From positions 1 to 64,000 of the forward strand of contig NZ_JAUOTO010000007.1 in the NCBI RefSeq assembly GCF_030546645.1: a stretch of DNA of 64,000 bases. The letters are read 5' to 3'. This document shows, piece by piece, positions 9,659 through 60,000 of this stretch. The DNA comes from Flavitalea plasmicola. Its GTDB lineage: Bacteria > Bacteroidota > Bacteroidia > Chitinophagales > Chitinophagaceae. The notes below the pieces were generated by a model that saw only the letters and a list, made by a program, of their open reading frames with translations, ran no database searches and had not been told where the DNA came from. Numbering within the stretch: the stretch's first letter is position 1; each line of letters begins with the position of its first letter. Both the position numbers and the translations under genes were made by a program.

Positions 9659-10701
9659 CCTTTTCTGCCGCACAAATAGCCATGCTCATCAACGGGAAAG
9701 TAGACGGGGACCCGAATGCTTCAGTCGCCTCTTTTGGAAGGATCGAGGAGGCCGTGACCGGGCAGCTGGCCTTCCTGGCCAACCCAAAGTATGAAGAGCA
9801 TCTGTATACCACGGCGGCTTCTGTCATCATCGTCAACGAAACGCTGGAGCTCAAGCAGCCCATCGACGCCACGCTGATCCGGGTTCCGGATGCCTACAGC
9901 GCTTTTGCCGTGCTGCTGGCCAAATACCAGGAAATAGAAGCCCAGCAGCTCACCGGTGTCCAGGAACCTTCCTATATCGCTAAAACGGCAAAACTCGGGC
10001 AGCATGTTTTCGTCGGGGCCTTTGCTTACCTGGGAGAAGGCGTCGTCATCGGCAATAATGTAAAGATCCATCCCCATGTCTACCTCGGCAACAATGTGAA
10101 GATCGCGGACAATGCCATCCTTCACGCGGGCGTAAAGATCTACCATGACTGTTCGATAGGAGCGCATGCAACCATCCATGCCGGCTCCGTCATCGGGAGC
10201 GACGGCTTCGGCTTTGCTCCGCAGTCCGATGGCAGCTTCAAAAAAGTTCCCCAGATCGGCAATGTCGTCGTGGAGGATTATGTGGAGATCGGCGCCAACG
10301 TCACCATCGATCGCGCCACCATCGGTTCCACCATCATCCGGACAGGGGCCAAGCTGGACAACCTGATACAGATCGCCCACAACGTGGAGATAGGTCACCA
10401 CACCGTCATCGCGGCCCAGGCTGGTGTCAGTGGCAGCACCAAGATCGGCAGCCAGGTGATGATCGGCGGACAGGCAGGTATCGTAGGCCATGTGCAGATT
10501 GCCGACGGAGCGAAGATCAATGCGCAAAGCGGCGTCACCAAATCCATCAAGACGCCGGGAGGCGCCGTGACGGGCAGCCCAGCCTACGACTACACCAGCG
10601 CCTTGCGCAGCCAGGCCCTCAGCCGCAACCTCCCCGACCTTGATAAAAGATTGAAAGAGCTGGAAGAGCTGGTCCGTCAATTGTTGGCGGAAAAGGTGTA
10701 A
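9655..10701 (+). CDS. lpxD: UDP-3-O-acylglucosamine N-acyltransferase
   Basis: The product has 348 residues. The start ATG at 9655 overlaps the HD stop and begins MTFSAAQIAMLINGKVDGD, typical of the family. An N-terminal uridine-binding domain (1-100, with FLANPKYEEHLY) is followed by a left-handed beta-helix of hexapeptide repeats (about 105-310), for example AFAYLGEGVVIGNNVKIHP and GSDGFGFAPQ. The catalytic His lies in the stretch LIQIAHNVEIGHHTVI. It adds the second 3-hydroxyacyl chain to the lipid A precursor in the cytoplasm. lpxC-fabZ and lpxA lie about 10 kb away on the opposite strand, so the lipid A genes are split into two groups here. Confidence 0.97.
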   Translation: MTFSAAQIAMLINGKVDGDPNASVASFGRIEEAVTGQLAFLANPKYEEHLYTTAASVIIVNETLELKQPIDATLIRVPDAYSAFAVLLAKYQEIEAQQLTGVQEPSYIAKTAKLGQHVFVGAFAYLGEGVVIGNNVKIHPHVYLGNNVKIADNAILHAGVKIYHDCSIGAHATIHAGSVIGSDGFGFAPQSDGSFKKVPQIGNVVVEDYVEIGANVTIDRATIGSTIIRTGAKLDNLIQIAHNVEIGHHTVIAAQAGVSGSTKIGSQVMIGGQAGIVGHVQIADGAKINAQSGVTKSIKTPGGAVTGSPAYDYTSALRSQALSRNLPDLDKRLKELEELVRQLLAEKV

Positions 10702-24742: not shown

Positions 24743-25723
24743 TCACGGCAGTCGCCTCCATAAAATATCCGAGAACATTTTCTTCGAGTCATAGAATTCA
24801 TGCACTGGACTGAACCCCGCCTGCCTTGCCAGGTAGTAAGTCTCCTGCAGGGAATATTTCTGAGAGATCTCCATGAAGATGGCCTCATTCTCCGAAAAGC
24901 TGATGACGGCTTCGTCTCCGATGTGCACCTGTTGCGCAACCCGGCTGATCAGGTAGCTTTTGCACGCGCCGGTGCCCGGATCATATACGGGATAATGCCC
25001 GAACTGGTCGATGTCGAAATCCGCATGCAGTTCGCGGTTGATCCTTTTCAGCAGATTGAGGTTAAAAGCCTTCGTCACGCCCTGCCGGTCGTTATAGGCT
25101 GCAAGGATCGTCCCCGGGTCCTTCTTCAGGTCGAACCCGATGAGCAAAAGGTCGCCGGGCCGCATGCGGTCATGTAATTGCCGGCAAAAAAGTGTAGCCT
25201 GCTGTATGGTCATGTTGCCAATATTGGCGCCCATGAACAGCACGATCTTCCTGCGTTGGGAAATTTGCTCCACATATTCCATTCTGTCCATATATTCCCC
25301 GTTGAGCCCCTGCATTTGCAGACCGGGAAGGCTCACCGGCAGCTTATCTTCCAGCCATCCAATGACGTTGGACGATATATCGATGGGATAGTACGTGAAA
25401 TGCGCCTTCGTCCGTATCAATTCCCGCAGCAGGTGCCAGGATTTGGTGGCGTCCCCGGGCCCCAGTTCCACCAGGTCAAAGGGCTCGCCATCGAAGAGGG
25501 CAGCCATGGCGCCCGACTGGTGCTGCATGATCTCCATCTCACAACGCGTAAGATAGTATTCCGGACTGGCCATGATCTGCTGGAAGATCTTGTCACCCGC
25601 CTCGTCATAAAAGTATTTGGAAGATAGATATTTCTGAGATGCCTTGAGCCCATTGATCACGTCCTGGTAAAATCCTGATAGACGGCGACCTGGCAGCTTT
25701 CTGGTGGAGGTGACAGAAAACAT
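24743..25723 (-). CDS. egtD: L-histidine N-alpha-methyltransferase
   Basis: The product has 326 residues. The SAM-binding motif is DLVELGPGDATKSW. YLTRCEMEIMQHQ and YYPIDISSNVIGWLEDKL are family signatures, followed by RKIVLFMGANIGNM, GDLLLIGFDLKKDPGTILAAYND and NLLKRINRELHADFD. EgtD trimethylates histidine to hercynine, the first ergothioneine step. It is the last gene of a five-gene minus-strand operon, 57 bases after egtB. The histidine-binding residues cannot be assigned with certainty by eye. Family membership is secure. Confidence 0.95.
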   Translation of the reverse strand: MFSVTSTRKLPGRRLSGFYQDVINGLKASQKYLSSKYFYDEAGDKIFQQIMASPEYYLTRCEMEIMQHQSGAMAALFDGEPFDLVELGPGDATKSWHLLRELIRTKAHFTYYPIDISSNVIGWLEDKLPVSLPGLQMQGLNGEYMDRMEYVEQISQRRKIVLFMGANIGNMTIQQATLFCRQLHDRMRPGDLLLIGFDLKKDPGTILAAYNDRQGVTKAFNLNLLKRINRELHADFDIDQFGHYPVYDPGTGACKSYLISRVAQQVHIGDEAVISFSENEAIFMEISQKYSLQETYYLARQAGFSPVHEFYDSKKMFSDILWRRLP

Positions 25724-25780
25724 AATACTGTTTTTAGTGATTAGACCCTATTTTATCAAACAATTCCAACCCGGGTTAGT

Positions 25781-26929
25781 TCATCTGGCAAGACGTATGC
25801 CAGTAAATTGCCACCGCAGGTGAGGATGAAAAAAATTCCGGTACGTATTCCGGCTATGATGGGCAGGAGTCGCTACCGACGCTCCTCTCAACACCATCTG
25901 GCTCACCATGAACTTACCGTTATATTCGCCGATGGCGCCTTCCGCCTTCTTAAATCCCGGATAAGGCAGGTAGGCGCTTTCTGTCCATTCCCATCTTTTT
26001 CCCCAGTTGAATTTCCTGGATGAGGCTTCCCATTCACACTCCGTGGGCAGGCGCATACCTTTCCAGGCGGCAAAAGCGACGGCCTCGTAATAGTTGATGT
26101 GGCAAACAGGCGCTTTCGGATCCACCTGTCGCAGCCCCGCCAGCGTATAGTAATACCATTTACCGTCGATAAAATGCCAGTACAGCGGCCCCTTGACCTG
26201 GTTGTTCTTCACCCAGTCCCAGCCCTCCGCATGCCAATATATAAAATTTTCATATCCGCCGGCTTTGATAAAGCCGAGATACGCCTCGTTGGTCACCAGG
26301 TCAGCCGAGATGGCAAAATCATTCAGGTAGACCTTATGACGGGCCAGCTCATTGTCAAAACAAAAACCTTCCCCTTCGAACCCTATCTCATAAATACCTG
26401 CCGGCATCGAAACGAAGCCCTCTCCCGACTCCGCCCCCCCTTCATCGATATCCTTGTCCGACAGGGCCGGGAACAATGGGTTATGCCCCAGGATGAATTT
26501 GATATCCGTCCACAGTAATTCCTGGTGCTGCTGTTCATGGTTCAACCCCAGCAGCAACGTATCCCGCAGCACGTCGTCCGCCTGGCAGGACAACAGTCTT
26601 TCCATCGCCGCGTCCACATACTTCCGGTACGCGTAGACATCCTCTACGGAAGGACGGCTCAGATTGCCCCTGTCCGTCCTTATCACCCGCGCGCCGATCG
26701 TCTCATAATAGCTATTGAAAACATAGTTATAATCCGCGTTGAAGACCTTATATGCCAGGTCATATTTCATCAGCACAAAAGTCTCCCAAAACCAGGTAGT
26801 ATGCCCAAGATGCCATTTGGGAGGGCTGACGTCGGCGACAGGCTGCACCACATAATCCTCTGTGCGGAGAGGCCGGCAGATAGCTTCGCTGGCCTGACGT
26901 ATCGTGCGATATTGTTCCAAGAGGCTCAT
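25781..26929 (-). CDS. egtB: Ergothioneine sulfoxide synthase EgtB
   Basis: The product has 382 residues. An N-terminal DinB-like helical domain carries the iron-binding His set: KWHLGHTTWFWE (His43) and LNHEQQHQELL (His131, His135). NSYYETIGARV (Tyr74-Tyr75) fits the paired active-site tyrosines described for one EgtB class. The C-terminal FGE-sulfatase domain (about 160-382) has FCFDNELARHKVYLNDF, RLPTECEWEAS and ends HPHLRWQFTGIRLAR. It joins hercynine to cysteine or gamma-glutamylcysteine with O2; which thiol is used is unresolved. No egtC is in the window, which favours cysteine. Start overlaps the transporter stop by four bases. Confidence 0.93.
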   Translation of the reverse strand: MSLLEQYRTIRQASEAICRPLRTEDYVVQPVADVSPPKWHLGHTTWFWETFVLMKYDLAYKVFNADYNYVFNSYYETIGARVIRTDRGNLSRPSVEDVYAYRKYVDAAMERLLSCQADDVLRDTLLLGLNHEQQHQELLWTDIKFILGHNPLFPALSDKDIDEGGAESGEGFVSMPAGIYEIGFEGEGFCFDNELARHKVYLNDFAISADLVTNEAYLGFIKAGGYENFIYWHAEGWDWVKNNQVKGPLYWHFIDGKWYYYTLAGLRQVDPKAPVCHINYYEAVAFAAWKGMRLPTECEWEASSRKFNWGKRWEWTESAYLPYPGFKKAEGAIGEYNGKFMVSQMVLRGASVATPAHHSRNTYRNFFHPHLRWQFTGIRLAR

Positions 26930-28503
26930 CGTTTATTTTTTTTCAGGTAAGTGGTAAGGTCCGATATACTATGTATACCCAATTGTTGTGCCTGGCTTCG
27001 CCGCATCATCAATGCATAGGCATTGTTAAACCCGATGGGGTCCAGCCAGGTCAGCTGGTACTTCTCATCAAAGCTTCTTTTTACATACTGATAGACGCTG
27101 TCCCTGTGGCCTCCCAGTCGTTGAACATCCTCCTTCGGTGACTGAAGAATGGCCAGCAGGGCCGTCCCTGTGTATTCGGGGTACATATCGATCTTGTTGT
27201 TCAGCAGCGCTGTAAAGCAGATCTTCGTCCCGCCCAGCCCCGTCTTCGTTTCCACCTGCAGCCCCATATATCCACGGATCAGCATCGCATACATATGGAG
27301 GAGGATATACTGCTCGGGGAAGATCTTGGATCCCAGCCGGATCGTGCCTTCCGCCGCCGGCGCCGGATCCCTGTACAACCCCTGCTGTACCAGGAAATCC
27401 CGGGCGCATTTTTCCGGAGGCTGGCCCAGGTGCTCCACTTTGTAGTTGAGCTCCGTCATCACAGAATCATTGATACGGCCCGCCAGCTTGTTCAGCACAG
27501 GACCGAGATCCTTGTATCGTTCCAGCACTTCCTTCCGGATGACAGGCGCCGCATAATAAGGTGGAAAAATTCTTCTGTCATCATCCAAGGTCAGCAGGTC
27601 ATAGGTCTTCAGTCTTCCGTCCGTACTATAGCCGCTGATGACATCCAGTTTTTTTTCATAGGCCGCCTTGTACATGACAGCATCGCTGATCACCACCGTA
27701 CGGATCTTTAATCCATACACTGCGCGAAGGCCGATGTCGCCATCGCTCCTTCCCATAAATTCAGGCGTGAAGCCTGCCAGCAGACGGGAGCTGTAGCCCA
27801 GGGGCAGCACATAAAAAGAAGAGAAGACCAGCAGCACGATGGGCATGGCCCACAAGGTCGCTTGTCTTTTTCTTCGCCCCATCTTCTGGACCAGGGATAG
27901 CAAAAAGTCCAGCAGGATGGCCAGCAGCGCCGCCGGTATGGCGCCGGCCAGGATCATATTCGTATTGTTCAGCGCGATGCCGCCAAAGATGAACTCACCC
28001 AGTCCGCCCGCGGCAATATAGGCAGCCAGGGTACCCACACCTACGTTGATCACCGTGGCCGTACGTATACCCGCCATGATGACGGGAAAGGCCAGCACCA
28101 GCTCCACCCTGAACAACAGCTGCCACCGGGTCATTCCCATCGCTACCGCTGCCTCTTTCACCAGGGGATCTACGCCGTTGATGCCTGTATAGGTATTCCG
28201 GATGATGGGCAGCAAGGCATACAGGAACAGCGCGGTAATGGCAGGCAGGGGGCCGATGCCCAGCAAGGGGATCATAAACCCCAGCAACGCAATGCTGGGA
28301 ATGGTCTGCAGCACACCTGCCAGGCCAAGGACGGATCCCGCTGCTTTCTTATGACGGGTGATATAGATCCCCAGGGGCAGCCCGATAAGGATGGCGATCA
28401 GCAAGGAAATAAAGGTCAGCCCGATATGCTCGAAGGTCTGCTGCAGCAGCTTAGCCGACTCCTGCCGCATGAATTGCCAGAGGGACTGCGCTTGCTCCAT
28501 CAA
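26926..28503 (-). CDS. ABC permease fused to a permuted quaternary-amine binding domain
   Basis: The product has 525 residues. Residues 1-205 are an inner-membrane permease of the ProW/OpuCB type with the EAA loop (KEAAVAMGMTRWQLLF). After a helix at 219-236 comes an OpuCC/ProX-like binding domain. Its usual second part comes first (PEFMGRSDGDIGL, YSTDGRLKTYDLLTLDDD, FPPYYAAPVIR, ELNYKVE; 248-376) and its usual first part last (IRLGSKIFPEQYILL, TGLGGT, IDMYPEYTGTALL, GFNNAYAL, ISDL; 388-516), a circular permutation. Fused permease-binders of this family include the ergothioneine importer EgtU. Position between egtV-like and egtB genes, with four-base overlaps, points to ergothioneine, hercynine or a related betaine as cargo. 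Glycine betaine remains possible. Confidence 0.9.
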   Translation of the reverse strand: MMEQAQSLWQFMRQESAKLLQQTFEHIGLTFISLLIAILIGLPLGIYITRHKKAAGSVLGLAGVLQTIPSIALLGFMIPLLGIGPLPAITALFLYALLPIIRNTYTGINGVDPLVKEAAVAMGMTRWQLLFRVELVLAFPVIMAGIRTATVINVGVGTLAAYIAAGGLGEFIFGGIALNNTNMILAGAIPAALLAILLDFLLSLVQKMGRRKRQATLWAMPIVLLVFSSFYVLPLGYSSRLLAGFTPEFMGRSDGDIGLRAVYGLKIRTVVISDAVMYKAAYEKKLDVISGYSTDGRLKTYDLLTLDDDRRIFPPYYAAPVIRKEVLERYKDLGPVLNKLAGRINDSVMTELNYKVEHLGQPPEKCARDFLVQQGLYRDPAPAAEGTIRLGSKIFPEQYILLHMYAMLIRGYMGLQVETKTGLGGTKICFTALLNNKIDMYPEYTGTALLAILQSPKEDVQRLGGHRDSVYQYVKRSFDEKYQLTWLDPIGFNNAYALMMRRSQAQQLGIHSISDLTTYLKKNKR

Positions 28504-29306
28504 CTTTGCCTTGTCTTAAAGTGATTAAATGCTTTCACCAGGGCCGGGTAATCATCCGGACCGATCATCCTCACCTCCAATTGGAAACGCTGATCGTCAA
28601 AAAAACCTTTTACATATTCGTCGGCGGGGTGGAACAGCAGCTCCTCCGGCTTGCCGGCCTGCACGATCTTCCCCTTATCCATCAGACAGATGCGGTCCGC
28701 CAGCTCGAAAGCTTCCTGGACATCATGGGTGACCAGAATAATGGTCTTGCTCTTCAGCTCGTCCAGCTCCTTGAAATCCTTTTGCAGGCTCGTCCTTGTA
28801 ATAGGGTCCAGCGCCCCGAAGGGTTCGTCCATCAGCAGAATAGGAGGGTCGGCCGCGAGGGCCCTGGCAAGCCCGATACGTTGCTGCTGGCCGCCGCTCA
28901 GCTGGTGCGGATAGGAAGACAGGTACGTGGAAGGAAGATGCAGCTTCTCCATCAGGGATATCGTGCGCTGCCGGATCTTTTCCTTCTCCCATCCCAGCAG
29001 CCGGGGAACAATGGCAATGTTCTCTGCTATCGTGTAATGCGGGAAAAGGCCCGTATTCTGGAATACATATCCGATGCTCCGCCGTAATACCTCCGGAGAC
29101 CCTTCCTGCGTCAGCTTGCCATTGATGCGGATCTCGCCCGAGCTGGGCTCGATGAGGCGGTTGATCATTTTCAGCAAAGTGGTCTTGCCGCAGCCGCTGC
29201 GTCCCAGCAATACAAAGCTCTCTCCTTCCTGTACGGTAAAGGAGACATGGTCGACGGCCGTGGCGCCGTCGAAGGTCTTTGTAATGTTTTTGACTTCGAT
29301 CATCAC
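28500..29306 (-). CDS. ABC transporter ATPase, OpuCA/EgtV-like
   Basis: The product has 268 residues. Walker A GRSGCGKTTLLKMI, Q loop YVFQNTGLF, signature LSGGQQQRIGLARAL, Walker B PILLMDEPFGALDP and the H-loop LVTHDVQEAF are all intact. The sequence is typical of quaternary-amine importers (ProV/OpuCA). Many of these carry CBS domains after residue 270; none is present here, so osmotic sensing through CBS is absent. Its stop overlaps the start of the permease gene by four bases, so the two form one transporter. It lies 18 bases after the flavoprotein gene. Confidence 0.93.
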   Translation of the reverse strand: MMIEVKNITKTFDGATAVDHVSFTVQEGESFVLLGRSGCGKTTLLKMINRLIEPSSGEIRINGKLTQEGSPEVLRRSIGYVFQNTGLFPHYTIAENIAIVPRLLGWEKEKIRQRTISLMEKLHLPSTYLSSYPHQLSGGQQQRIGLARALAADPPILLMDEPFGALDPITRTSLQKDFKELDELKSKTIILVTHDVQEAFELADRICLMDKGKIVQAGKPEELLFHPADEYVKGFFDDQRFQLEVRMIGPDDYPALVKAFNHFKTRQS

Positions 29307-29324
29307 AAGGGCTACAAAGGGCTA

Positions 29325-30728
29325 TTACAAGCTGCTGAAAAGATTGTTCAGGGATTCGCCAAAAGTAGGGTGGGCAAATACAGCGTCACGGATCCGGTCA
29401 TAAGTAATGCCTCCCATCATGGCCATCTGCAATATACCCATCAATTCGCCACCACCCATGGATAACATGGCCGCACCGATTATCTTTTTGTTATCGGCAT
29501 CGACAATGGCCTTCAGGAGGCCGCGGGTCTCGCTGTTCTCAAATGCCCGGGCGATCCTGTCGGCAGGCAGGGTGGCTACCTTGACATTGACGCCCTGTGC
29601 ACGCGCCTCTTTTTCCGTAAGACCCACCCTACCCAGCTCCGGATCGGTGAAAAGACAATAAATGGGCAGACGGCCGGCAATACTTTCATTTCCCTTCTCT
29701 ACCAGGTTCTTGTATACAATAAGATGATCATTATAGGAGATATGCGTGAACTGGGGGCCACCCTTCACATCTCCCAATGCGTAGATACCCGGGATATTCG
29801 TTTCGAGCTTATCGTTGACCTTGATAAAACCATGCTCGTCCAGGAGGATACCTGCAGCCGTGGGGTTCAGGGCAGCCGTATTGGCGCTCCGGCCCGTGGC
29901 CAGCAGCAGGTGTGTCCCCTCAACGGAATGCGCAGCCGCCTCCGGAGCATAGCTGCCGGCAGGCATGGTGAGGTCCACTTTGACCCCGCCCGACCCCGGA
30001 GAAAATGACACCTGCGTCACCTTTGCATGGATCAATATCTTTATGCCGTCATCCTCCAGTATCTTCTTCAATTCACCTGCAATATCCTCATCCTCTTTCG
30101 ACAGGAACTGCGCATTTCCCTCGATGATGGTGACCTCGCTGCCCAATCGTCTGTATAGCTGACCGAACTCCAGGGCAATGTAGCTGCCGCCAATGATCAC
30201 CAGGTGACGGGGTACTTCCAGCAAGTCCATGATCGTGTCCGAAGTAAAATAGCCGGTCCCCTCCAGACCAGGCACTGGCGGTATCACAGGGCTGGTGCCC
30301 GCATTGATAAAAATATGGTTGGCCGTCAACGCAGACCGGGAACCGTCCTCTTTCGTAACGGTGACTTCCTTCTCTCCCGTAAAGACCGCATTGCCAAAGA
30401 TCAGATCGAGATGGGCCGTACGCAGCAGCCCCTGGGTGGAAGATTCCCGGGCCGCCAGCACCACGGCATTCTTACGACGGACCACCTCCTCCATGTTGAC
30501 CGCGTAACCAGAGGTATCGATCCCGAAATCTTTGCTTCTTTTAACGAGATAGGCTATACGCCCCGAAGCGATCATGGTCTTGGTAGGCGTACAGCCGACA
30601 TTCACACACGTGCCCGCTACCCACTTACGCTCTATGACAGCCACTTTCCATCCTGCATTTGCCAGCTTTTTTGCCAGCGGATTACCCGCCTGACCGGAAC
30701 CGATAATGATCGCATCATATTTTGTCAT
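29325..30728 (-). CDS. FAD-dependent disulfide reductase, mercuric-reductase-like
   Basis: The product has 467 residues from ATG 30728; the longer frame lacks homology at its start. The FAD motif is IIIGSGQAGNPLAKKLA (8-24), the redox disulfide CVNVGC (41-46), a second dinucleotide motif VIIGGSYIALEFGQLYRRLG, the FAD-phosphate site IPGIYALGDVKGG and the C-terminal dimer HPTFGES. The catalytic His-Glu pair of glutathione reductase reads here as AHPTFGE. No HMA domain and no vicinal C-terminal Cys pair of true MerA is seen. It is the first gene of the ergothioneine operon. A role in reducing an ergothioneine-linked or other low-molecular disulfide is attractive but unproven. Confidence 0.88.
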   Translation of the reverse strand: MTKYDAIIIGSGQAGNPLAKKLANAGWKVAVIERKWVAGTCVNVGCTPTKTMIASGRIAYLVKRSKDFGIDTSGYAVNMEEVVRRKNAVVLAARESSTQGLLRTAHLDLIFGNAVFTGEKEVTVTKEDGSRSALTANHIFINAGTSPVIPPVPGLEGTGYFTSDTIMDLLEVPRHLVIIGGSYIALEFGQLYRRLGSEVTIIEGNAQFLSKEDEDIAGELKKILEDDGIKILIHAKVTQVSFSPGSGGVKVDLTMPAGSYAPEAAAHSVEGTHLLLATGRSANTAALNPTAAGILLDEHGFIKVNDKLETNIPGIYALGDVKGGPQFTHISYNDHLIVYKNLVEKGNESIAGRLPIYCLFTDPELGRVGLTEKEARAQGVNVKVATLPADRIARAFENSETRGLLKAIVDADNKKIIGAAMLSMGGGELMGILQMAMMGGITYDRIRDAVFAHPTFGESLNNLFSSL

Positions 30729-30771: not shown

Positions 30772-30900
30772 ATGCCTTCGCCTCGTAAAGATAAGACAAC
30801 CCCGCATCCCATCGACTGGGAAAAATACCAGCACCTTTTCAGGGAAACAGCTGTCCCTGCCGGAGGAAATGGATCAACCTATAGCCCAGTAACCTCCCGT
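30772..30900 (+). pseudogene. Possible N-terminal gene fragment
   Basis: A plus-strand frame from ATG 30772 begins MPSPRKDKTTPHPIDWEKYQ and looks protein-like for about 35 residues. It then runs into the antisense of the next ORF and becomes unconvincing. It may be the start of a lost gene. No family is recognised. The rest of the 30729-31234 interval holds only the ORF at 30874-31146 and no other feature that I can see. Confidence 0.2.
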
Positions 30901-31146
30901 TTTTCGGCTTCCCCGCCGCTCTATGAGTCGTTGCTTCACCAACTCCCTTATCTGGCGCTCGATTGTCTTTAGTGGTCTGTTGTCCAATAGTTTTGGTAAA
31001 TCCTTAGCTTTTGTGCCTGGGTTTTTAATTACAATTTCCAATAAGGACTTTAATCCCTCACTTAATCCCTCACTCCCAGCTGTATCCAGTACAGCCGCGC
31101 TGATTGAAAAACTGCTTTTAAACTCCGTATGATCATCTTCCCGCAT
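30874..31146 (-). pseudogene. AlbA_2/winged-helix regulator remnant
   Basis: The product has 90 residues. It starts DDHTEFKSSF, like the first strand of AlbA_2 (Schlafen-like) domains. It then passes directly to a C-terminal winged helix of the type found at the end of AlbA_2-ATPase regulators (LLEIVIKNPGTKAKDLPKLL, KTIERQIRELVKQRLIERRG, SRKTGGYW). The several hundred residues normally between are missing. An internal deletion is the simplest explanation. A short functional regulator cannot be excluded since the frame is open. It lies in an otherwise gene-free gap. Confidence 0.5.
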
Positions 31147-31234: not shown

Positions 31235-32407
31235 TCAATCCTTCCCTTCCGCGCCCCCCTTCTTCTTCCGCCGCCCCCACCAGATAATAAAACCCGTCAC
31301 CGGCAAACTCGCACAGATCAGGCTGGCAATAAACGCAATGATCTTCCCCGTGAGGCCGCCAATAGCGCCCACATGAATATCATAGTTCATCTCCACCAAC
31401 TTCTCCCCTCCGTTCTTTTCCGAATGGTTGCGCCTGTGCAGCAGCTTCCCGGAATACTGATCGAACTGCAGGGCGTCAGCGCCATAATACGTCTCACGCC
31501 CCTTATAGCCCAGCGCATAAATGGTCCCTGTCTTCCCCGCCGCGGGAATGATCAACAGCCGCCTTGACTCCGGCAGCTGCCGCAGCGCTTCCTGGAAAGC
31601 AATATCCATCGGGTGACTGGTAGCATCCCGGGTCAAAGGTTCCACCGACACCACGCTCACCTGCGGCGGCGGCGTGGTACTACCCGAAGCCGCAACGTAT
31701 ACCACCGCCTCGAACCATCTGAAGGCAAAGACCATCCCCGTCAGCGCGATGATCAGCGCAGGAATAAGGCTGTAAAACCCCGGCACATTGTGCAGGTCGT
31801 AATTCACCCGCTTGAAGCGGGCCTTCCATTTGATCTTAAAGCTTCGGTCACGCAGCGCCTTCGTCCATTTCTTTGGCCACCAAAGCACCAGTCCCGTGAT
31901 GAGCAGCAGCACAAATACAAACGTGCTCCAGCCCACGATAGGCTGACCATAAGGCGTGTTGAGCAGCAGGCTCCAATGGATATATTTGACGATATGGAAG
32001 AAATCATGCTTATAATCATGCACCCCCAGCACCTTCCCCGTATAAGGATCGACATACACGGTCTGGAAATACCCGACAGCGCTGAAATAGGTCAGCGACG
32101 TATCGTTGAAATGGTACGCCATGAATTCCCAGCTGCGATCCGGCTGACGATGGATCGTGACATCGTTGACAGGCATGGATGAGCCCAGGGCCGCCTGTGC
32201 GGTCTGCAGCAGCTCGCTCAACGGCCGGGTGGAAGACGCCGAAGCCTTTACAAAATACTGGTCCTTCCTCACCGTCTCGGAGATCTCTTTCTGGAATACA
32301 TACAGGCAGCCGGTGATGCTGACGATCAGCACGACAATGCCGGAGGCCAGCCCCAACCAAAGATGAAGCTGGCCTATCCAATATTTTAAGGTCTTTTTCT
32401 TCTTCAC
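31235..32407 (-). CDS. PepSY-associated transmembrane protein
   Basis: The product has 390 residues. It has a first helix with the family signature (GQLHLWLGLASGIVVLIVSITGCLYVFQ), a periplasmic PepSY-like domain (about 60-135), then HDFFHIVKYIHWSLLL, a helix VFVLLLITGLVLWWPK, a YDLHNVPGFYSLIPALIIALTGMVFA helix split by a turn, a second periplasmic PepSY part, and NYDIHVGAIGGLTGKIIAFIAS before the last helix. Conserved His residues (HLW, HWSL, DLHN, DIHVG) may bind haem or iron. It lies nine bases downstream of a TonB-dependent receptor gene. Such pairs are found in siderophore use, where the PepSY protein is proposed to reduce or release iron. Confidence 0.92.
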   Translation of the reverse strand: MKKKKTLKYWIGQLHLWLGLASGIVVLIVSITGCLYVFQKEISETVRKDQYFVKASASSTRPLSELLQTAQAALGSSMPVNDVTIHRQPDRSWEFMAYHFNDTSLTYFSAVGYFQTVYVDPYTGKVLGVHDYKHDFFHIVKYIHWSLLLNTPYGQPIVGWSTFVFVLLLITGLVLWWPKKWTKALRDRSFKIKWKARFKRVNYDLHNVPGFYSLIPALIIALTGMVFAFRWFEAVVYVAASGSTTPPPQVSVVSVEPLTRDATSHPMDIAFQEALRQLPESRRLLIIPAAGKTGTIYALGYKGRETYYGADALQFDQYSGKLLHRRNHSEKNGGEKLVEMNYDIHVGAIGGLTGKIIAFIASLICASLPVTGFIIWWGRRKKKGGAEGKD

Positions 32408-32416
32408 TTATACGGG

Positions 32417-34903
32417 CTAAAACTTGAAAGAAATACTCGCCACTACGCTTCTCAGCTTCTGCGGATTGACCGTAGTATAGCCGATCCAATATTTTTTATC
32501 CGTCAGGTTATCGGCCTTGACGGCAAATCGAAACTTCGCATAGTCATAGAAAACAGAAGCATTCAGCGCAGCATAGGACGGCAGTATAAACACCCCCACC
32601 GACTTGCTGTTGATGATCTTGTTATCGCTGGCATAGTTGCCGCCAAACCCAACGCCCAGCCCCTGCAGTGATCCCCCCGGCAGGCGATAGCTCACCCACC
32701 AGTTGGCCGTATAAGGAGAGGAGGCTGTGCCCGGCCGGCGACCCACCACATCCAAATCCGCCTTCAGGTACTTCGAATCATTGTACGAGAACCCCGCGAC
32801 AATATTCAGGCCCTGTAGGGGATTGGCGACCACCTCCGCCTCGATACCTTTGCTTCTTTGCGTTCCATCCTGGATCTGTGGGAAGGGTGGCAGGCTGGGG
32901 TCCGGAACAGCCGGCACATAGGCCCGGACAATGTTGTGTACCCGAATGTCATAGACACTCACCGTGCTCGTCACCTTTCCTCCAAACAGGTCGAGCTTTA
33001 CACCCGCCTCCGCCTGGTAGGCATTTTCCGGCCGGAAGGCCTTGCCCTTATAGTCTGTACCCGTCTCATTGGTAAATCCGCTCTGGTAGTTGGCAAACAG
33101 GGACACCTGGTCCTTTACGGGCTGGAAGACGACCCCGAACTTGGGCGACAACGCGGTCTGGTTGTAACCACCGCTCGTCTTGCCTGTCGTCACGTCATAA
33201 TTACCTTTGTTGACAAAATGGTCCACCCGGAGCGCCGCCATCACCAGCAGGTTGTCCGTCAGGTTCGCCACATCCGAAACATAGGTGCTGTACGTGTTGG
33301 TGATCAGGTCCACGGGATAGACAAAAGTGACCCCCTTCGTCTCATATAAATTCGCCAGCGCCGCGCGGTTGAAGTTCCTGTAAGTGGGAATATCCCCATG
33401 GGAAGCGATCGTGTCCAGCGTGCCGCCGCTGAAGAACTGGTTGGAATTGTGATTAAAATAATCCAGGCCGGCGACAAACCGGTGCTGAACGCCGCCGAAA
33501 TAAAACTCGCCATTGAGGTTCTGCTGGATCTCCATCATCCTGTCCCGGCTGTTGGCCGTGAACTGATCGTTGCGGGAGATATAATCGCTGCCGATGGCAG
33601 TCGGGTCGCCCGTGACGGCACCATTGGACAGCAAATAGAAATAAGGGCCGGGGCCGTCAGAATAGCTGTTTGTCACCGTTATATTCGTCTGCGTGCTCCA
33701 TTTGTCTGATATCTTATATAGCAGCTGACCGAAGAAATTCGTGCTGGCGGACTTCTGGGAAAGGTCGTCGCTGAAGAAGCTCCGGCGATAATCCAGGGGC
33801 AATTGGTCCGCGCGGGAATAGCCCATCGAAGCGATGGTCTGACCATAAGGGAAAAAGAAGATAGGCGCCAGCAGGTTCGTGCCTCGGTAGATCTCCGCGT
33901 CGAAGAGGAAGGACACCCGGTCGTTTATTTTATAGGACAGGCTGGGCGCAAAGGAAAAGGTCCTGTTAAAGCCATTGTCCTGGAAGCTGCCTTCGTCCAG
34001 GTACGCCGTATTCACACGCAGCAGGACATTCCTGGCCGAGTCCAGCGGTGTATTGAGATCCGCGCTGATGCGGTTGAAGCCGAAGTTGCCGCCCGCATAG
34101 GTCACCTCTCCGCCAAAAGATCCATAAGGCTTTTTCGTCACCCGGTTGATCAAGCCGCCATAGGAGGTCAGCGTGCTGCCGAACAAGGTAGCGGAAGGCC
34201 CCTTGAGCACCTCGATCCTTTCGAGATTCGCGGCATCGATCTTGCTGCTGACGATGCCGGCAATGCCATTCCGCAGGTTGCTTTGTACGATAAAACCCCT
34301 GGAATTGTAATAGCTGCCCCCGTCACCGCTGCGCCCCGTGGCCTCCCACATCTTCTGAACGCCCGTGGCATTACGCATGGCATCGTCCACGGAGAACACC
34401 AGCTGATTGTTCATCAGCTCTTTCGTGATCGTGGTATATACTTGCGGGTTCTCTATATTTTTCAGGGGCATCTTAGCCGCATAATCGCTGCTGTTACGGG
34501 CAAATTTGTTACGGCCGCCCGATACCACCACTTCCTGCAGCTGCCGGCCGGACACCTGCAATAAAATAGCCACCGTAGTGGACTTGCGGCTTTCCACCGT
34601 CACACGCTGGCTCGCTGTGGCAAAACCTGTCATGGATATTTCCAGCTCGTACTCGCCCGCCGCAAGGTTGCGGAGGGTAAAATTCCCATCCTCATCGGTC
34701 AGCGTGCTCCTGCGCGAACCTTTCACCTGGATCGTGACAAAGGCAGCCGGCCGGCCCTCGGACGTAGTTACCTTCCCCTTGATGGAGCCGTTGTTCTCCT
34801 CCCCGATGCGGGAAGAGTCGGCGGGAATGCCCGCGGCATATCCGGACAAGCCGGCAATCAATAAAGCAGCTGTAATAACGGTCGTGAATATTATATTTTT
34901 CAA
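32417..34903 (-). CDS. TonB-dependent siderophore receptor
   Basis: The product has 828 residues if translation starts at TTG 34903. This gives a clean signal peptide (LKNIIFTTVITAALLIAGLS). The frame extends upstream to 35278, but that part is implausible. An N-terminal carboxypeptidase-regulatory-like domain (about 40-115: GSIKGKVTTSEGRPAAFVTIQVKG) precedes the plug (VVVSGG.., NQLVFSVDDAMRNATGVQ, RGFIVQSNLRNGI) and a 22-strand barrel. The protein ends YWIGYTTVNPQKLRSVVASISFKF-like, with the terminal Phe for BAM recognition. The plug resembles FhuE/FoxA-type ferric-siderophore receptors. It is followed by a PepSY protein gene. A palindrome GGCAAATTTGCC lies 18 bases upstream of the TTG. Confidence 0.92.
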   Translation of the reverse strand: MKNIIFTTVITAALLIAGLSGYAAGIPADSSRIGEENNGSIKGKVTTSEGRPAAFVTIQVKGSRRSTLTDEDGNFTLRNLAAGEYELEISMTGFATASQRVTVESRKSTTVAILLQVSGRQLQEVVVSGGRNKFARNSSDYAAKMPLKNIENPQVYTTITKELMNNQLVFSVDDAMRNATGVQKMWEATGRSGDGGSYYNSRGFIVQSNLRNGIAGIVSSKIDAANLERIEVLKGPSATLFGSTLTSYGGLINRVTKKPYGSFGGEVTYAGGNFGFNRISADLNTPLDSARNVLLRVNTAYLDEGSFQDNGFNRTFSFAPSLSYKINDRVSFLFDAEIYRGTNLLAPIFFFPYGQTIASMGYSRADQLPLDYRRSFFSDDLSQKSASTNFFGQLLYKISDKWSTQTNITVTNSYSDGPGPYFYLLSNGAVTGDPTAIGSDYISRNDQFTANSRDRMMEIQQNLNGEFYFGGVQHRFVAGLDYFNHNSNQFFSGGTLDTIASHGDIPTYRNFNRAALANLYETKGVTFVYPVDLITNTYSTYVSDVANLTDNLLVMAALRVDHFVNKGNYDVTTGKTSGGYNQTALSPKFGVVFQPVKDQVSLFANYQSGFTNETGTDYKGKAFRPENAYQAEAGVKLDLFGGKVTSTVSVYDIRVHNIVRAYVPAVPDPSLPPFPQIQDGTQRSKGIEAEVVANPLQGLNIVAGFSYNDSKYLKADLDVVGRRPGTASSPYTANWWVSYRLPGGSLQGLGVGFGGNYASDNKIINSKSVGVFILPSYAALNASVFYDYAKFRFAVKADNLTDKKYWIGYTTVNPQKLRSVVASISFKF

Positions 34904-34920
34904 TTGATTATGATTTGAGC

Positions 34921-34932
34921 GGCAAATTTGCC
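34921..34932. promoter_or_regulatory. Palindrome GGCAAATTTGCC upstream of the TonB receptor gene
   Basis: This perfect 12-bp palindrome lies 18 bases before the proposed TTG start of the receptor gene and about 120 bases before the divergent small gene. It could be an operator. No regulator is known for it here. Confidence 0.35.
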
Positions 34933-35053
34933 ACAGGCAGCCCGGCTCCGGCGACGACATCGGGAAAAAATACTTACGCAATAAGGAAACAACAGCCGAA
35001 TAGGCCCGGATTTTGCATGTCCAGGCAGAAGAAGTAAAAGACATTTTGTACAG

Positions 35054-35353
35054 ATGAAAATGGACGAGTTTAAGGCCACCCTGAACGGGCAACACCCGCC
35101 ACCCGGTGTCACTGCCAGCCTTGCGGCCATGTGGTACGACGCTAAGGGCGAATGGGAGCAGGCGCATACCATCGCACAAGACATCCCCACCAGCGAAGGA
35201 TCGCTGGTGCATGCTTACCTGCACAGGAAGGAAGGAGATAAGTGGAACGCCCAATATTGGTACAACCGGGCAGGGCAACCGATGCCCGGGCTTTCTTTGG
35301 AACAGGAATGGGAAGACATCGTACAGGGTTTTCTCAGCGGCAAACCCATGTAA
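35054..35353 (+). CDS. Small conserved hypothetical protein
   Basis: The product has 99 residues; ATG 35060 is an alternative start two codons downstream. It is soluble, Trp-rich and charged, with AAMWYDAKGEWEQAHTIAQD, HAYLHRKEGDKWNAQYWYNR and a C-terminal EWEDIVQGFLSGKPM. The helix-turn-helix hairpin character suggests a TPR/Sel1-like pair, but no family name is claimed. It is divergent from the TonB receptor gene and 50 bases before the glycosyltransferase gene. Confidence 0.8.
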   Translation: MKMDEFKATLNGQHPPPGVTASLAAMWYDAKGEWEQAHTIAQDIPTSEGSLVHAYLHRKEGDKWNAQYWYNRAGQPMPGLSLEQEWEDIVQGFLSGKPM

Positions 35354-54072: not shown

Positions 54073-57000
54073 TTACTTTTTTGGTTTGGGCTTAATAGCT
54101 GCCGGGGTGATCTCTCTTTGTAAAATTTTACTCCATTTTTCAGACCATTCGCGTAAAGCGGGATAAGCATTAATCATTTTATCAGGATGTATAAATTCAG
54201 GCCTTGCTTTTCCCCCGCTAACTGGAATATCTTCTCTTAAAATTACAAAGACATCTATATCACTGGCTTTAAGACCTCCAGTTGCCACCTGCCGAAATCC
54301 ACCACCCTTTGAAGAAACTCCCGTAACAGAGCTCCCCGTGACACCCATTTTTTCATAATTAATACCTGATTTATCCAATGCAGCTGCCAATTCTTCACCA
54401 ACTTTTGCAAATTGTTCCGCATTTTTAAACCCTCTAGGAATCATAGAGGCCGCTTTTGCCTCCTCACCGCCCGGGAAAAAGAGTATTCCAGCTTCAAAAG
54501 CTAGTGCTCCGACGGCCTTATTATCGCCATTAGCCGCTTTTTTTACTAAATCTTGGTATTCATCAAGAGTCTTTTTTACTGCTTCGGCTGCCGATGCTAG
54601 CTCAGGGTTAATTTCAGGTTTTGCTCCTGGGGGAATACCAGCAATATATGTTGTGTTGACTCCATAAATGGGACCTCTATATTTAGTATTAATTAGTGAT
54701 TTTACACTATGTACTATTTGATCCACATTTTTCTCGGCCTGCTCCAAGAACCCTTCTCTCACTCCTCTCAAGTGAGTAGTTCCGTATAAATACTTCTCTG
54801 CCTTTTCGCTGAGATACCAAAAAATAAATTCATTGCCATCTAGGTCAACTCCAGCTATAGGGTTATTTCCAGTATATTGATACGGTGTTAATTCTGGATA
54901 TTGCCTAGTCAACGCATCCACACTCAAAAACTTCCCCACTCTCGGATCATACACCCTCATCCCGTAATCAATCTGATCCCCGATCCCTTTCACCTCATTA
55001 TCATTCTCCTTCCCATTAAACCCATACCGATACCCCCCACTACTAAACGTCCTCCCCGGCATCTGCATCCCAAAAGGATAATAATCCGTCGCACTCGCCA
55101 CATCAGCCGAATAATAATCCACGACCGACAGGCCAGCCGAGTTCTGGATCTTCTTATCTGTCACTGTCACCAGCACATTCCCCAAATGATTACTTAATTC
55201 AAAGAGCTTGCTCCCCCGCACCCACACATTAGCCGTCGGTGCCGCCAGGTTCGTGCAATTTACATTTAAATTCAAAATACCCAATCGGCTGCTGCCATAT
55301 ACATGCGCCTCCGTCTGCGTCAACGCCCCGCTGTTCTTCGCATTATCCCCTTGCACATACGTAGCCATCACATTCCCGGACGCATCCCGCACATACCAGG
55401 TGGTGATCCCCCCTACATTCTTACTAATCCTATTGCCGGAAGCATCATAAGTATAAGTAATGACCCCGGAAGCATTCGTGATCGTAAGGATCTTCCCATA
55501 TACATTCCAGGTTATCGTGCTCGAACTGTCATTGATCAGGTTACCGATCTGGTCATACTGGTAATGGAGTGGCGCCTGTGATTTTATATCATCATACCCC
55601 GTGCTCGCAATATCTCCAATGCTAGACAGCCGGTTAGTCATATGATCTACACTGCCGGACACCGCCTGACCGGGGGTGTATTCCCCTATGGTGCCATCTC
55701 CCTTCACATACTGATACTTATAGCTCATGTTGTCCATGGCCAGGTTGGACCCAAATCCATTCCGGCTTAGCGTCAATATATTCCCGTTCGGATCATAACC
55801 ATACCTTTCCGCATAATCCTGCATCGGCGCCGTACCCGTAGGCCCAAAGCTGCCATTGGCCGCCCACGCATCCATGCTGCTGATCCGGTTCAGCTGATCA
55901 TACTTATAGTTGTAGATCATCGGCGTGCTCGTCGTCAGCTTGCGGATATTCACCGCCATGCTGTTGATATTCCCGTTGTACAGGTTGTTCCTGGACGCCA
56001 AAGGCAAGGTATTGCCCTGGACGTATCCTACAGGTGCTGATACTGGCTTGTAATCCGTATAAACACCGTCATCAAAATAATGCAGGTTGAACTTAAAGGC
56101 ATCCCGGGCAAATGGTGAATTCACGCCCGTACCATCGGAGTCATACAGGTCCCCCCCACCGCCATCTACCCACGATGGATTGACGGACTTAAGCCATCCC
56201 TGCAGCGTATAGGCATAGTCAATCCCCTGCACCTGCAGTCCGCCTAATGTCGCGCGGGCCAGCGGTCCATGCCGGTAATACTGATAAGTGGCGTCATTTT
56301 CCCATTGAATGGAATCCCGGCTTGTGCGCACACCGGTGATCCTGTTCTCCGCATCATAAGTATATTGATGGTAGAAAGCATCGATCCGGCCCGGCTGATA
56401 GCTCACCTGGTTGACCTTATTGCTGACGAGGTCATAATCATATTTGATCAGCTTATACTGGTTGCCATTCGGCGTCATAACGCTGGATGCCCCATAATCC
56501 TGTACCAGGGTATCCACGTTGCCGTGCACGTCATAGCTATAATATGTGGCGGCACGATAGGCAAGATTCTCCGCGTCAAACACTTGCGTATACGCTACCC
56601 TGTTCCGTAGGTTCACCTGTCCCAATGGTGCCAACCCGCTAAAGCCGACATACGGCACATCATAGACAGTCCGTGTGACCTGCGCCTTGGTACCCCCTGA
56701 AGTCAGGTCCGCCAGCCAGTTGCTCAGCGCTGTCTCGTCCTGGCTGATGGTCTGGGTCATACCCGTGGACTGAGGTTTCTGACCTACCTCCTTAATACGA
56801 CCCAATTGATCATATATCGTATAGCTGTACGACGGGTCCGCCAGCTGTTTGGCATTCTGGCTGACCGCCAGCCGCCCGAGCCTGTCATACCAGAAATTTG
56901 CGATCCCTGCATCCGGTGACCGCTGGGCCACCACCTGGTTCAGTGAATTATACCGATACTGGGTGGCCATGTTCTCGATATTCGTACCATTGGACAGGTC

Positions 57001-60000
57001 CGTAGCAGCCAACCGGGAGGACTGCACCTGCGCCAGATAAGTCGCATTGAAATTAGGTCTGACAGCCGCCGGAGGCAGCGTCTTCACCAGGTTACCCGCC
57101 TGGTCATAATAATACAGGGTATAGTGATATTCGGAAGGCTGATACGTGGCATAGAATACTTCGGCAGACTGCGCGCTAAAACATTTTGCCTTATACAGAC
57201 TGTCAAAATTGCCGATCAAAGAGTCCTTGCGCTGCTGGAAGATCAGCATCCCTATAAACTTAGCCTCATCTTTCGCTTGTTGGCAAGGGTTGGCGTCGGT
57301 GGTATCCGGCAGGGGGAAAGAAGTCACCGGCTTTGAAAAGTCGCAGAGCGCATATTCGCCGGCCCCGCCATTGCCCGACAGTAAGGTCTCGAACTCATCC
57401 GTATTGAGGCTGCTATACTCCTGGAAGAAGATGATGCTGTCCCGGGCAATATACAATTGCGGCGGCGGCGAACCCGAAGGGGGCTGGGTAGCACGGTCGG
57501 TCAACAACAGCCAGGCTGGGGCGCCATTCGCATAAAAACAGGAGGGGTAAACTGCCGCATATTCGTTGGCCGATTTGTTGAATCCTGTCTTGTAATTAAG
57601 GTACCTTGCCCATAATTCATTTTGGCGCACCATATTGGCATCGGTCTCTCCGACGTAAGGCACTGCGGAATAGGCAGGGTACAAGAGTCTGAAGGTATCA
57701 GTATAATTCTTGAGCACGGTGCAGGTGACGCAAGGGCGCACATAGCCGCAATTCAGAAATGCGGGAACGACCACCTGGGCGCCAATAGGAATACGCCTGT
57801 AGTAGGTGAAACAGGAATCGCCACCACCCGACCTGGGCACACAGCCGGTGGTCCAGAAAGTAAACCCATTGCAGCTTGCCAACCCTTGCCAGAGTGGCAA
57901 GGTCAGCGAATCTCCATAGTTAGCGAGCAAATATGCATTCATGCTGCTTAAACTGGTGCTATCATAACCGGCAGCCTTTGCAGCAGCTTTTAACATCGCA
58001 AATTGACTGCAATTGCAGGTATCCGCATAAGCAGCCTGCTTTACATATAAAGGCGGGTTAGCATTAAATGGCTTGGGGTAGTCCACGGAATACGGGTTAC
58101 AGAAATAATTGTCGCCCGGAAGGGTAGCAATACCATTGGCAGTAAAAACATGATTGATGATAGCCTCAAAATTATCGGGATTGAGAGGGCGTAAGGCGGG
58201 ATTGACATTGGACGCGCCTTCAGGGTTATTGCCATTAATGGAATTGTGACACACCATTACCATCGAATCCAGGATAGTATTGATGATATTGGTGACCTTT
58301 ACCGAGTCGCTATGGGTCTCTGTTAAAAGGAACTGCTGGAGTTGCTCACACTGCATCAGTCTTCCTTGCCAGAAAGGTCGTTGACCCGCACATTGGTCCA
58401 AAAGATACGGGGCTGCATTTGCCGTGGCCTGGGTAGCAAGAGACACGGGATCAACACCTCCTTTATTGGCAGCTTGCCCCCACCAGGTCCAGCCATTTTG
58501 GGTTGCATTGTCCTGCATCGAAAAGAAGTAGAGCGTCTTATGATCCACATCCCGCAGCTGGTTCATCTGCGTCTCGGATAGGCTTCCGAACATCTGGGCA
58601 TTGACATACTTCACCACCATATCATTACGGTAGGAAAGATATTGATTGCGGAAAGCCAGCCAGACGGCATTTTTCTGGGCATCGGTGACCGCGGAAGGAT
58701 CGATACCATCCTTGTTCATGCCCGCCATAAAATTGAACTGTAGCGCCTGCGGAAGCGTCGTATCCACCAGGGCCACACCATTTGCAATCCGCCAGATCGT
58801 ATGATTGCCTGACTCGTTTGGATTGACGCTGACAGACAAATAATACAGCATGGAGTCCCGGTCGGTTTGCACATATCCATGGTTGCTATTGTAAGTAAAA
58901 TACGGATCACTGGACACAGGATTCAGATAACCTTTGGCCAATGCGTCAGCATACGTATTGCAATGCATCACATTGTCCAGCCAGTTGTAAGAGGATGCCA
59001 TTGTCGTCTCGGCATAATGCAGTTTACTGTATTCCGGATGGAAATAGATCAGCCTGTCCGCCCAATTACGCTTGAACATCACAGCAAAATCACTAGCAGC
59101 GAGGGCATTGATCGTAGCATGATCCGCCTGGCCGTTAGGGTAAAGCATAATATCTGCCGTTCCATCCGTATTGACATAGTAATTAGGATCGCCGTTAGGC
59201 TCTGATACCGGGTTCCTGAAATAAGGCCGGGTTCTGATATTGCCATAGTTGGAAGCGGTGGCGAATATATTGTAGCGCGATGACAGGCTGGTTGCATCCG
59301 CCGACGGCAACGCATATTGCCCCGTATAAGGTATCATGTCGGCGAGCATACGTGCCCGTATCATCCCAAGTGTGCTGAATGCCGGATTCACCGAAAGGCC
59401 GCAAGCCTCGGAGCAGGCCAGAGAATCCTGGGCATATAACGCATGTAAGGCCGAGTCAGACAGGGAAGTGCTTCCGCCGACGGAGCTGATATAATTGCTC
59501 TTGTAGGTGGCATAATCTCCCAGCTGAGCCTGACAGGCGCTGCAATTACGGGTGGCACGCGGAACTCCACAGTTGGTTGAAGCAGACAACGCGCTGAAGA
59601 TCGAATCCTCGATATCCTGCTGGGTTTTGCACAGGAATACTTTCAAGGCACTATCCTCTCTGATCTTAAGTAACGAGTCGTTAAGGGTGAGTGTCTTCCT
59701 GACGATCCATGATCCCACCCCCAGCGTAGTATCAAATTGTATTTGGGTGGTAGCCGTGCCGATATTATCCCCGGTGAATCCCATGGAACTTCCGCAGGCC
59801 TGGCCGGCAGCAACCATCTGCAGGTTATTATAATGTTTTACGATAGGCGCCGCATTGGAGCAGCCTTCCGGACGGATGGATATCTCCAGGTCATACTTAC
59901 AGTCAAAACAAATAGACTGGTTATTGCAGCTCATTTGTTGCAAAATGGCTGGAGTCAGCTGATAGGTAAAATAATAATGAGTGGAGGTTGGCAGCAGCAG

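Follow-up and report, generated by a model that had tools for sequence, protein, structure and literature searches.

The locus described here raised the question of whether a transporter encoded beside the ergothioneine synthesis genes egtB and egtD serves the ergothioneine pathway. It lies in a stretch of 64,000 nucleotides from Flavitalea plasmicola (assembly GCF_030546645.1, contig NZ_JAUOTO010000007.1, positions 1 to 64,000; genome 8.73 Mb), referred to below as the window. An earlier note had placed egtD, egtB, an ATP-binding cassette (ABC) ATPase, and a fused permease–substrate-binding domain (SBD) protein in one operon spanning 24743..30728, and all four genes were found there on the minus strand. 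The same span holds a fifth gene, left out of that note's title, for a flavin-dependent disulfide oxidoreductase (hereafter the reductase); the order of transcription is reductase, ATPase, permease-SBD, EgtB, EgtD (Table 1). The transporter proved to have a circularly permuted SBD and to be linked to EgtB well beyond this genome.

Linkage was examined in 105 transporter loci (97 plus 8 further permuted ones), 101 of which were distinct after 4 duplicates were dropped; the named relative loci were the best 80 of at least 583, and hence are close relatives. Only five gene families occurred in more than 15 of the 105 loci: EgtD, EgtB, the permease-SBD, the ATPase, and the reductase. Among the 101 distinct loci, complete open reading frames (ORFs) numbered 85 for EgtB, 85 for EgtD, 97 for the ATPase, and 60 for the reductase, and egtB lay on the same stretch in 86 (the 85 complete ones plus that of L031, which is cut by a contig end). 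When 14 loci without an adjoining egtB were tested (L058 was left out), 13 carried EgtB at another place in the genome (L013, L017, L018, L081, L099, L104–L107, L109, L130, L133, and L134). Lineages that only scavenge, with import but without synthesis, were considered and rejected, there being almost no cases; the one genome without EgtB among those tested was G202 (locus L131). The order reductase-ATPase-permease-EgtB-EgtD was found in 55 loci and the same order minus the reductase in 11; 12 loci, from Chryseobacterium and Epilithonimonas, had the order EgtD-EgtB-ATPase-permease, and other orders occurred in single loci. A rearranged order in which the same partners are kept is what functional coupling predicts.

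The association was then quantified in two overlapping genome samples, 117 genomes from the family of the window and 296 from its phylum, which named relatives indicate to be Chitinophagaceae and Bacteroidota, with kinship ignored in all of the P values. In the family sample a strong transporter match was defined as a PF04069 E value below 1e-18; the next best match was 9e-6. Transporter and EgtB occurred together in 18 genomes, the transporter alone in none, EgtB alone in 3 (G018, G050, and G030, the last with EgtB at a contig end), and neither in 96 (Fisher, 2e-18); EgtB adjoined the transporter in 15 of the 18. Because nothing should restrict an osmolyte importer to genomes with EgtB, we conclude that the transporter probably serves the ergothioneine pathway. 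EgtB was present in 81 genomes of the phylum sample, including 14 of the 15 with the permuted transporter and 19 of the 23 with an unpermuted fused one, the latter recognized by a frame of at least 484 aa, with 12 of the 23 looked at (L118–L129). The association of either fused form with EgtB was again strong (Fisher, P = 1.6e-16); for stand-alone SBDs it was 4 of 7 (P = 0.09). The earlier note's claim that an organism making ergothioneine would seldom have its own importer did not hold in this group: of the genomes with EgtB, the fused transporter was present in 18 of 21 from the family sample and in 33 of 81 from the phylum sample. With EgtB in 18 of 18 transporter genomes and egtB alongside in 86 of 101 loci, the combination is common in this group.

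As in EgtU, the permease and SBD of the window form one chain and the ATPase is separate. The order within the fusion is the transmembrane domain (aa 1 to about 212), the SBD C-half, a linker, and the SBD N-half, so that the SBD halves are swapped relative to EgtU; the unpermuted SBD order behind the permease, another feature of EgtU, is absent in the window. The fold order of the window SBD is of the OpuAC type. All 18 strong PF04069 genes in the family sample were of the permuted kind, the order being swapped in 17 of 17 uncut genes and the remaining one being cut by a contig end. In a permease tree all 105 permuted sequences (the window plus 104 loci, 4 of them duplicates) fell into one clade with a support of 0.949, and 12 unpermuted ones fell outside it, which points to a single origin of the permuted architecture. 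The closest named homologues of the window transporter were labelled Puia.

Some further observations on architecture were made. All 12 unpermuted loci that were fetched had a third arrangement, with the SBD at the start of the chain and the permease at its end, and the L119 protein starts with a lipoprotein-like signal. An apparent fusion of permease-SBD and EgtB in L023 (909 aa) was rejected, as a TAA stop at 10199–10201 separates the genes. A VIA-align search with the whole predicted model did not list EgtUC, a result that is no evidence against likeness to EgtUC.

Table 1 Features of the operon in the window
Feature	Coordinates	Strand	Details
Pyridine-nucleotide disulfide oxidoreductase, flavin-dependent, 467 aa	29325..30728	-	Upstream ATG at 30812 is an alternative start
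ABC ATPase, ProV-like, 268 aa	28500..29306	-	Motifs GRSGCGKT, LSGGQ, LLMDEP
Permease-SBD fusion, 524 aa	26926..28500	-	PF00528 + PF04069
SBD C-half, aa 238–377	27370..27789	-	EgtUC chain residues 137–276
SBD N-half, aa 386–521	26938..27345	-	EgtUC chain residues 9–133
EgtB, 382 aa	25781..26929	-	DinB_2 + FGE-sulfatase
EgtD, histidine N-alpha-methyltransferase, 326 aa	24743..25723	-	PF10017, E 2.5e-97

The genes are closely packed, with a gap of 18 bases between reductase and ATPase, an overlap of 1 base (ATG start) or 4 bases (TTG start) between ATPase and permease, a 4-base overlap (ATGA) between permease and EgtB, and a gap of 57 bases between EgtB and EgtD.

The binding pocket was compared with that of Streptococcus pneumoniae EgtU (SpEgtU). 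In the C-half, E247, R251, D253, Y291, and Y315 correspond to SpEgtU E375, R379, D381, Y419, and Y443, and in the N-half K392, I393, T425, T446, N493, and Y495 correspond to K242, I243, T275, T296, N339, and Y341. The aromatic cage with an Asn base and with Lys, Thr, and Arg for the carboxylate, a feature of the cluster F-III proteins ProX, OpuC, and EgtU, is present by alignment. Four SpEgtU residues are replaced: G244 by F394, T274 by G424, F293 by Y443, and Y337 by F491. Excerpts of PMC9732360 name G244, F293, and Y337 as the ergothioneine determinants that set EgtU apart from ProX. The combination F/Y/F at 244/293/337 was found in 96 of 96 complete permuted loci (the 97th, L029, is cut). 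At position 244 the 8 further permuted loci had F in six and Q in two (L131 and L132), and the 12 unpermuted relatives had F in 11 and W in one (L120); all 20 had Y at 293 and F at 337. By the EgtU paper's own criterion the window SBD is, as judged from its aligned residues, not EgtU. The earlier note was borne out in that the genes for synthesis are coupled to a fused importer related to EgtU, and the coupling recurs across the phylum. Taken strictly, however, the label "EgtUV-like" did not hold, given a circularly permuted SBD with none of the three EgtU-specific residues.

The permuted sequences also contain a pocket subtype. Ser replaces the cage Tyr291 (Y419 of SpEgtU) in 12 of the 101 distinct loci (13 of 106 rows): L020, L021, L023, L024, L026, L057, L061, L065, L067, L074, L078, and L085, the named ones being mostly Chitinophaga. 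This subtype always has Asp-Gly for Glu-Gln at 396–397; 92 rows have Tyr with Glu-Gln, and 1 row is cut. At position 274, 12 of the Ser rows have Met and the other has Asn; in the Tyr rows this position is never Met, mostly Ala, and Asn in five. The pocket of the window is of the common (Tyr) type.

Several solved proteins bear on this comparison. The acetylcholine and nicotine sensor precursors 6uru and 6v1r, which we take to have been engineered from a choline/betaine-binding protein, align with the fusion split in swapped order; unlike the window they have an unpermuted SBD, an engineered pocket, and no ergothioneine link. The SBD of 8dp6 is related, and its order is unpermuted in an alignment with the unpermuted relative L119. 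Although the PDB labels 8dp6 and 8dp7 merely "Osmoprotection protein," they are presumably the Helicobacter pylori ergothioneine transporter protein. Ergothioneine uptake by the H. pylori system is of lower affinity, as stated in excerpts of PMC9732360. EgtU itself (EgtUABC of S. pneumoniae, PMC9732360) resembles the window in its ATPase and one-chain permease-SBD, and EgtUC (9egi) was among the nearest solved SBDs (180 bits; 41% over 140 aa with Foldseek). The window differs in its swapped SBD halves, its four replaced residues, and its adjoining egtB, egtD, and reductase genes, and it lies outside the Firmicutes, to which the same excerpts nearly confine EgtU. OpuAC of Bacillus subtilis and OpuA of Lactococcus lactis were 16–19% identical to the window; OpuAC holds betaine by Trp side chains (excerpts of PMC9732360), whereas the window's cage positions, as aligned with EgtU, are Tyr. 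Archaeoglobus fulgidus ProX shares with the window F, Y, and F at the equivalents of 244, 293, and 337 (same excerpts) but is an unpermuted, stand-alone SBD and scored 129 bits, compared with 180 for EgtUC. As precedents for permutation, TpMglB-2 of Treponema (PMC4990184) belongs to another ligand family, and the glycine-betaine-protein permutation family of CPSARST (PMC2395249) comes from structural comparison only; neither is linked to ergothioneine in the available passages of these papers. A literature search judged by titles and abstract openings found no paper on this operon.

EgtB scored 534.2 bits with TIGR03440 (cut-off 360) and fell under the cut-off of the selenoneine synthase (SenA) family NF041186 (343.8 versus 420 bits). 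Its nearest solved relatives were Chloracidobacterium-type EgtB structures (8qf6, 6qki, and 6o6l; E about 1e-119), and its residues H43, H131, and H135 align with positions 62, 153, and 157 of the 8qf6 chain, presumably the iron-binding His triad. In an alignment of 90 sequences, 4 of them duplicates, these three residues together with Y74, Y75, F366, and F367 were at least 97% conserved. The window EgtB, like its close relatives, lacks a loop at model positions 311–340. The host genome contained no second EgtB over the cut-off, and the operon contained no C-S lyase. EgtD scored 326 bits with PF10017 (cut-off 23) and slightly under the cut-off of TIGR03438 (286 versus 290.9 bits). If, as we assume, the His-binding residues of Mycobacterium smegmatis EgtD are Y56, N166, Y206, M252, E282, and S284, then a hand count on the alignment shows all but M252, which is Ser, to have kept equivalents. 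A second EgtD-like methyltransferase gene lies elsewhere in the host genome (L002:1456–2439, contig C11), next to a gene that appeared DJ-1-like by eye and without EgtB on its 3.9-kb stretch; it may supply hercynine for another use.

The reductase has the active-site motif CVNVGC (Cys41/46) and HPTFGE at 453, and across an alignment of 63 sequences the Cys, His, and Glu of CxxxxC and HPTxxE were at least 97% conserved. It is related to MerA, RclA, and hypothiocyanous acid reductase but fell under the NCBIfam equivalog cut-offs for mercuric reductase (353.9/454 bits), RclA (387.9/740), and hypothiocyanous acid reductase (367.2/650). Its best solved matches were 6kgy/6kod, which we take to be RclA, and a mercuric reductase. 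Judged solely from its position, it probably returns oxidized ergothioneine to the thione; one narrow literature search found no paper on an enzyme with this activity. The window ATPase, at 268 aa, is shorter than most of its relatives (mostly 290–339 aa).

On balance we lean toward the view that the transporter is an importer and infer ergothioneine as its leading ligand, with hercynine second. In such a pathway EgtD would convert histidine to hercynine, EgtB, nearest to the Chloracidobacterium enzyme, would carry out the O2-dependent sulfoxide formation, and the ABC importer would recapture leaked ergothioneine or take up that of neighbours. The SBD would be periplasmic and tethered to the permease; four Tyr and an Asn would form a cage around the betaine, and Lys, Thr, and Arg would contact its carboxylate. 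Circular permutation would have transferred the tether from lobe D1, its place in EgtU, to lobe D2 without displacing the residues of the pocket. The reductase would re-reduce oxidized ergothioneine.

Several points weigh against ergothioneine as the ligand. Foremost is the pocket, because F in place of G244 takes the space on the sulfur side and glycine betaine would fit; the residues of the glycine-betaine protein ProX stand at all three EgtU-named determinants. In excerpts of PMC9732360 (Table 1 there), single G244F and F293Y changes in SpEgtUC lower affinity about 100-fold and 10-fold, although each mutant still binds (Ka 2.0e5 and 2.0e6 per molar), and relatives without the determinant residues are said possibly to bind another betaine or to be relaxed. 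The top PDB score of the fusion was that of 6uru, at 185 bits compared with 180 for EgtUC. Outside the family the tie is one-sided: in the phylum sample, 48 of the 81 genomes with EgtB had no fused transporter. Finally, G202 has the permuted transporter and EgtD but no EgtB over the cut-off, G266 likewise combines EgtD with a transporter, here unpermuted, in the absence of EgtB, and G265 has a transporter with neither enzyme; further fused-transporter genomes without EgtB are G313 and G317, of the same genus as G266. In G202 and G266 either another enzyme may insert the sulfur or hercynine may be the end product.

A more ambitious version of import, to which we attach a tentative and rather less than even belief, is a self-contained ergothioneine cycle of the Bacteroidota, in which EgtD and EgtB make the compound, a permuted EgtU-type importer with a non-EgtU pocket recaptures it, and a dedicated flavin reductase re-reduces it. 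The subtype with Ser291, Asp-Gly at 396–397, and mostly Met274 would then be a second mode of ligand recognition.

It is also conceivable, if unlikely, that hercynine (histidine betaine) is the main ligand and that the importer feeds EgtB its precursor or recaptures a leaked intermediate. We know of no hercynine-specific SBD, and EgtB is retained in most transporter genomes; in G202, by contrast, the transporter is kept next to EgtD without EgtB. EgtU keeps water around the thione sulfur, a place that F at position 244 fills (excerpts of PMC9732360), so that a sulfur-free ligand may fit better; the same excerpts show SpEgtUC to bind hercynine far more weakly than ergothioneine.

To a similarly low degree we credit an importer of glycine betaine or proline betaine, or of a choline-type compound, with betaine as the methyl source for the three methylations by EgtD or with a shared stress response. 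All complete permuted sequences have the ProX-like residues at 293 and 337, and all except the two with Q have the one at 244. These residues argue for such an importer, as do the top score of the acetylcholine-sensor precursor and the Pfam and NCBIfam matches of the fusion, all to glycine-betaine families (the NCBIfam ones under cut-off). An osmolyte importer would, however, be expected in genomes without EgtB too, and none of the 96 such family genomes had the transporter; betaine-homocysteine methyltransferase was not among the five recurrent gene families, although no genome search was aimed at it. That the swapped order is an assembly error, a gene-calling error, or a recently scrambled gene, for which nothing but its rarity speaks, we regard as excluded for practical purposes, given the single open frame, the coherent AlphaFold model, and the same order in every uncut family transporter, in 15 phylum-sample genomes, and in the aligned relatives.

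Other genes in the window were noted in passing. A 90-aa ORF upstream of the operon (30874–31146, minus strand) had only weak matches, to the CRISPR-associated regulators Csa3 and CasR (PADLOC scan included), and is possibly a remnant or a small regulator. A PepSY-type membrane protein and a TonB-dependent receptor directly upstream (31235–35278, minus strand) are perhaps a metal-uptake pair without relation to the operon. One ORF at 54073–61779 (minus strand) encodes 2568 aa.

The locus is of interest for the permutation of its transporter and for the link of that transporter to EgtB. Two chain orders that share a largely similar pocket but tether it by opposite lobes amount to a natural experiment, and the permuted SBD offers a test of which residues truly set ergothioneine specificity. 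A dedicated reductase for oxidized ergothioneine, if the fifth gene encodes one, would be of interest by itself. If ergothioneine is indeed the ligand, its transport would regularly accompany its synthesis across much of one phylum and would not be just a scavenger trait, which would suggest leakage of ergothioneine in that phylum, followed by recapture or exchange.

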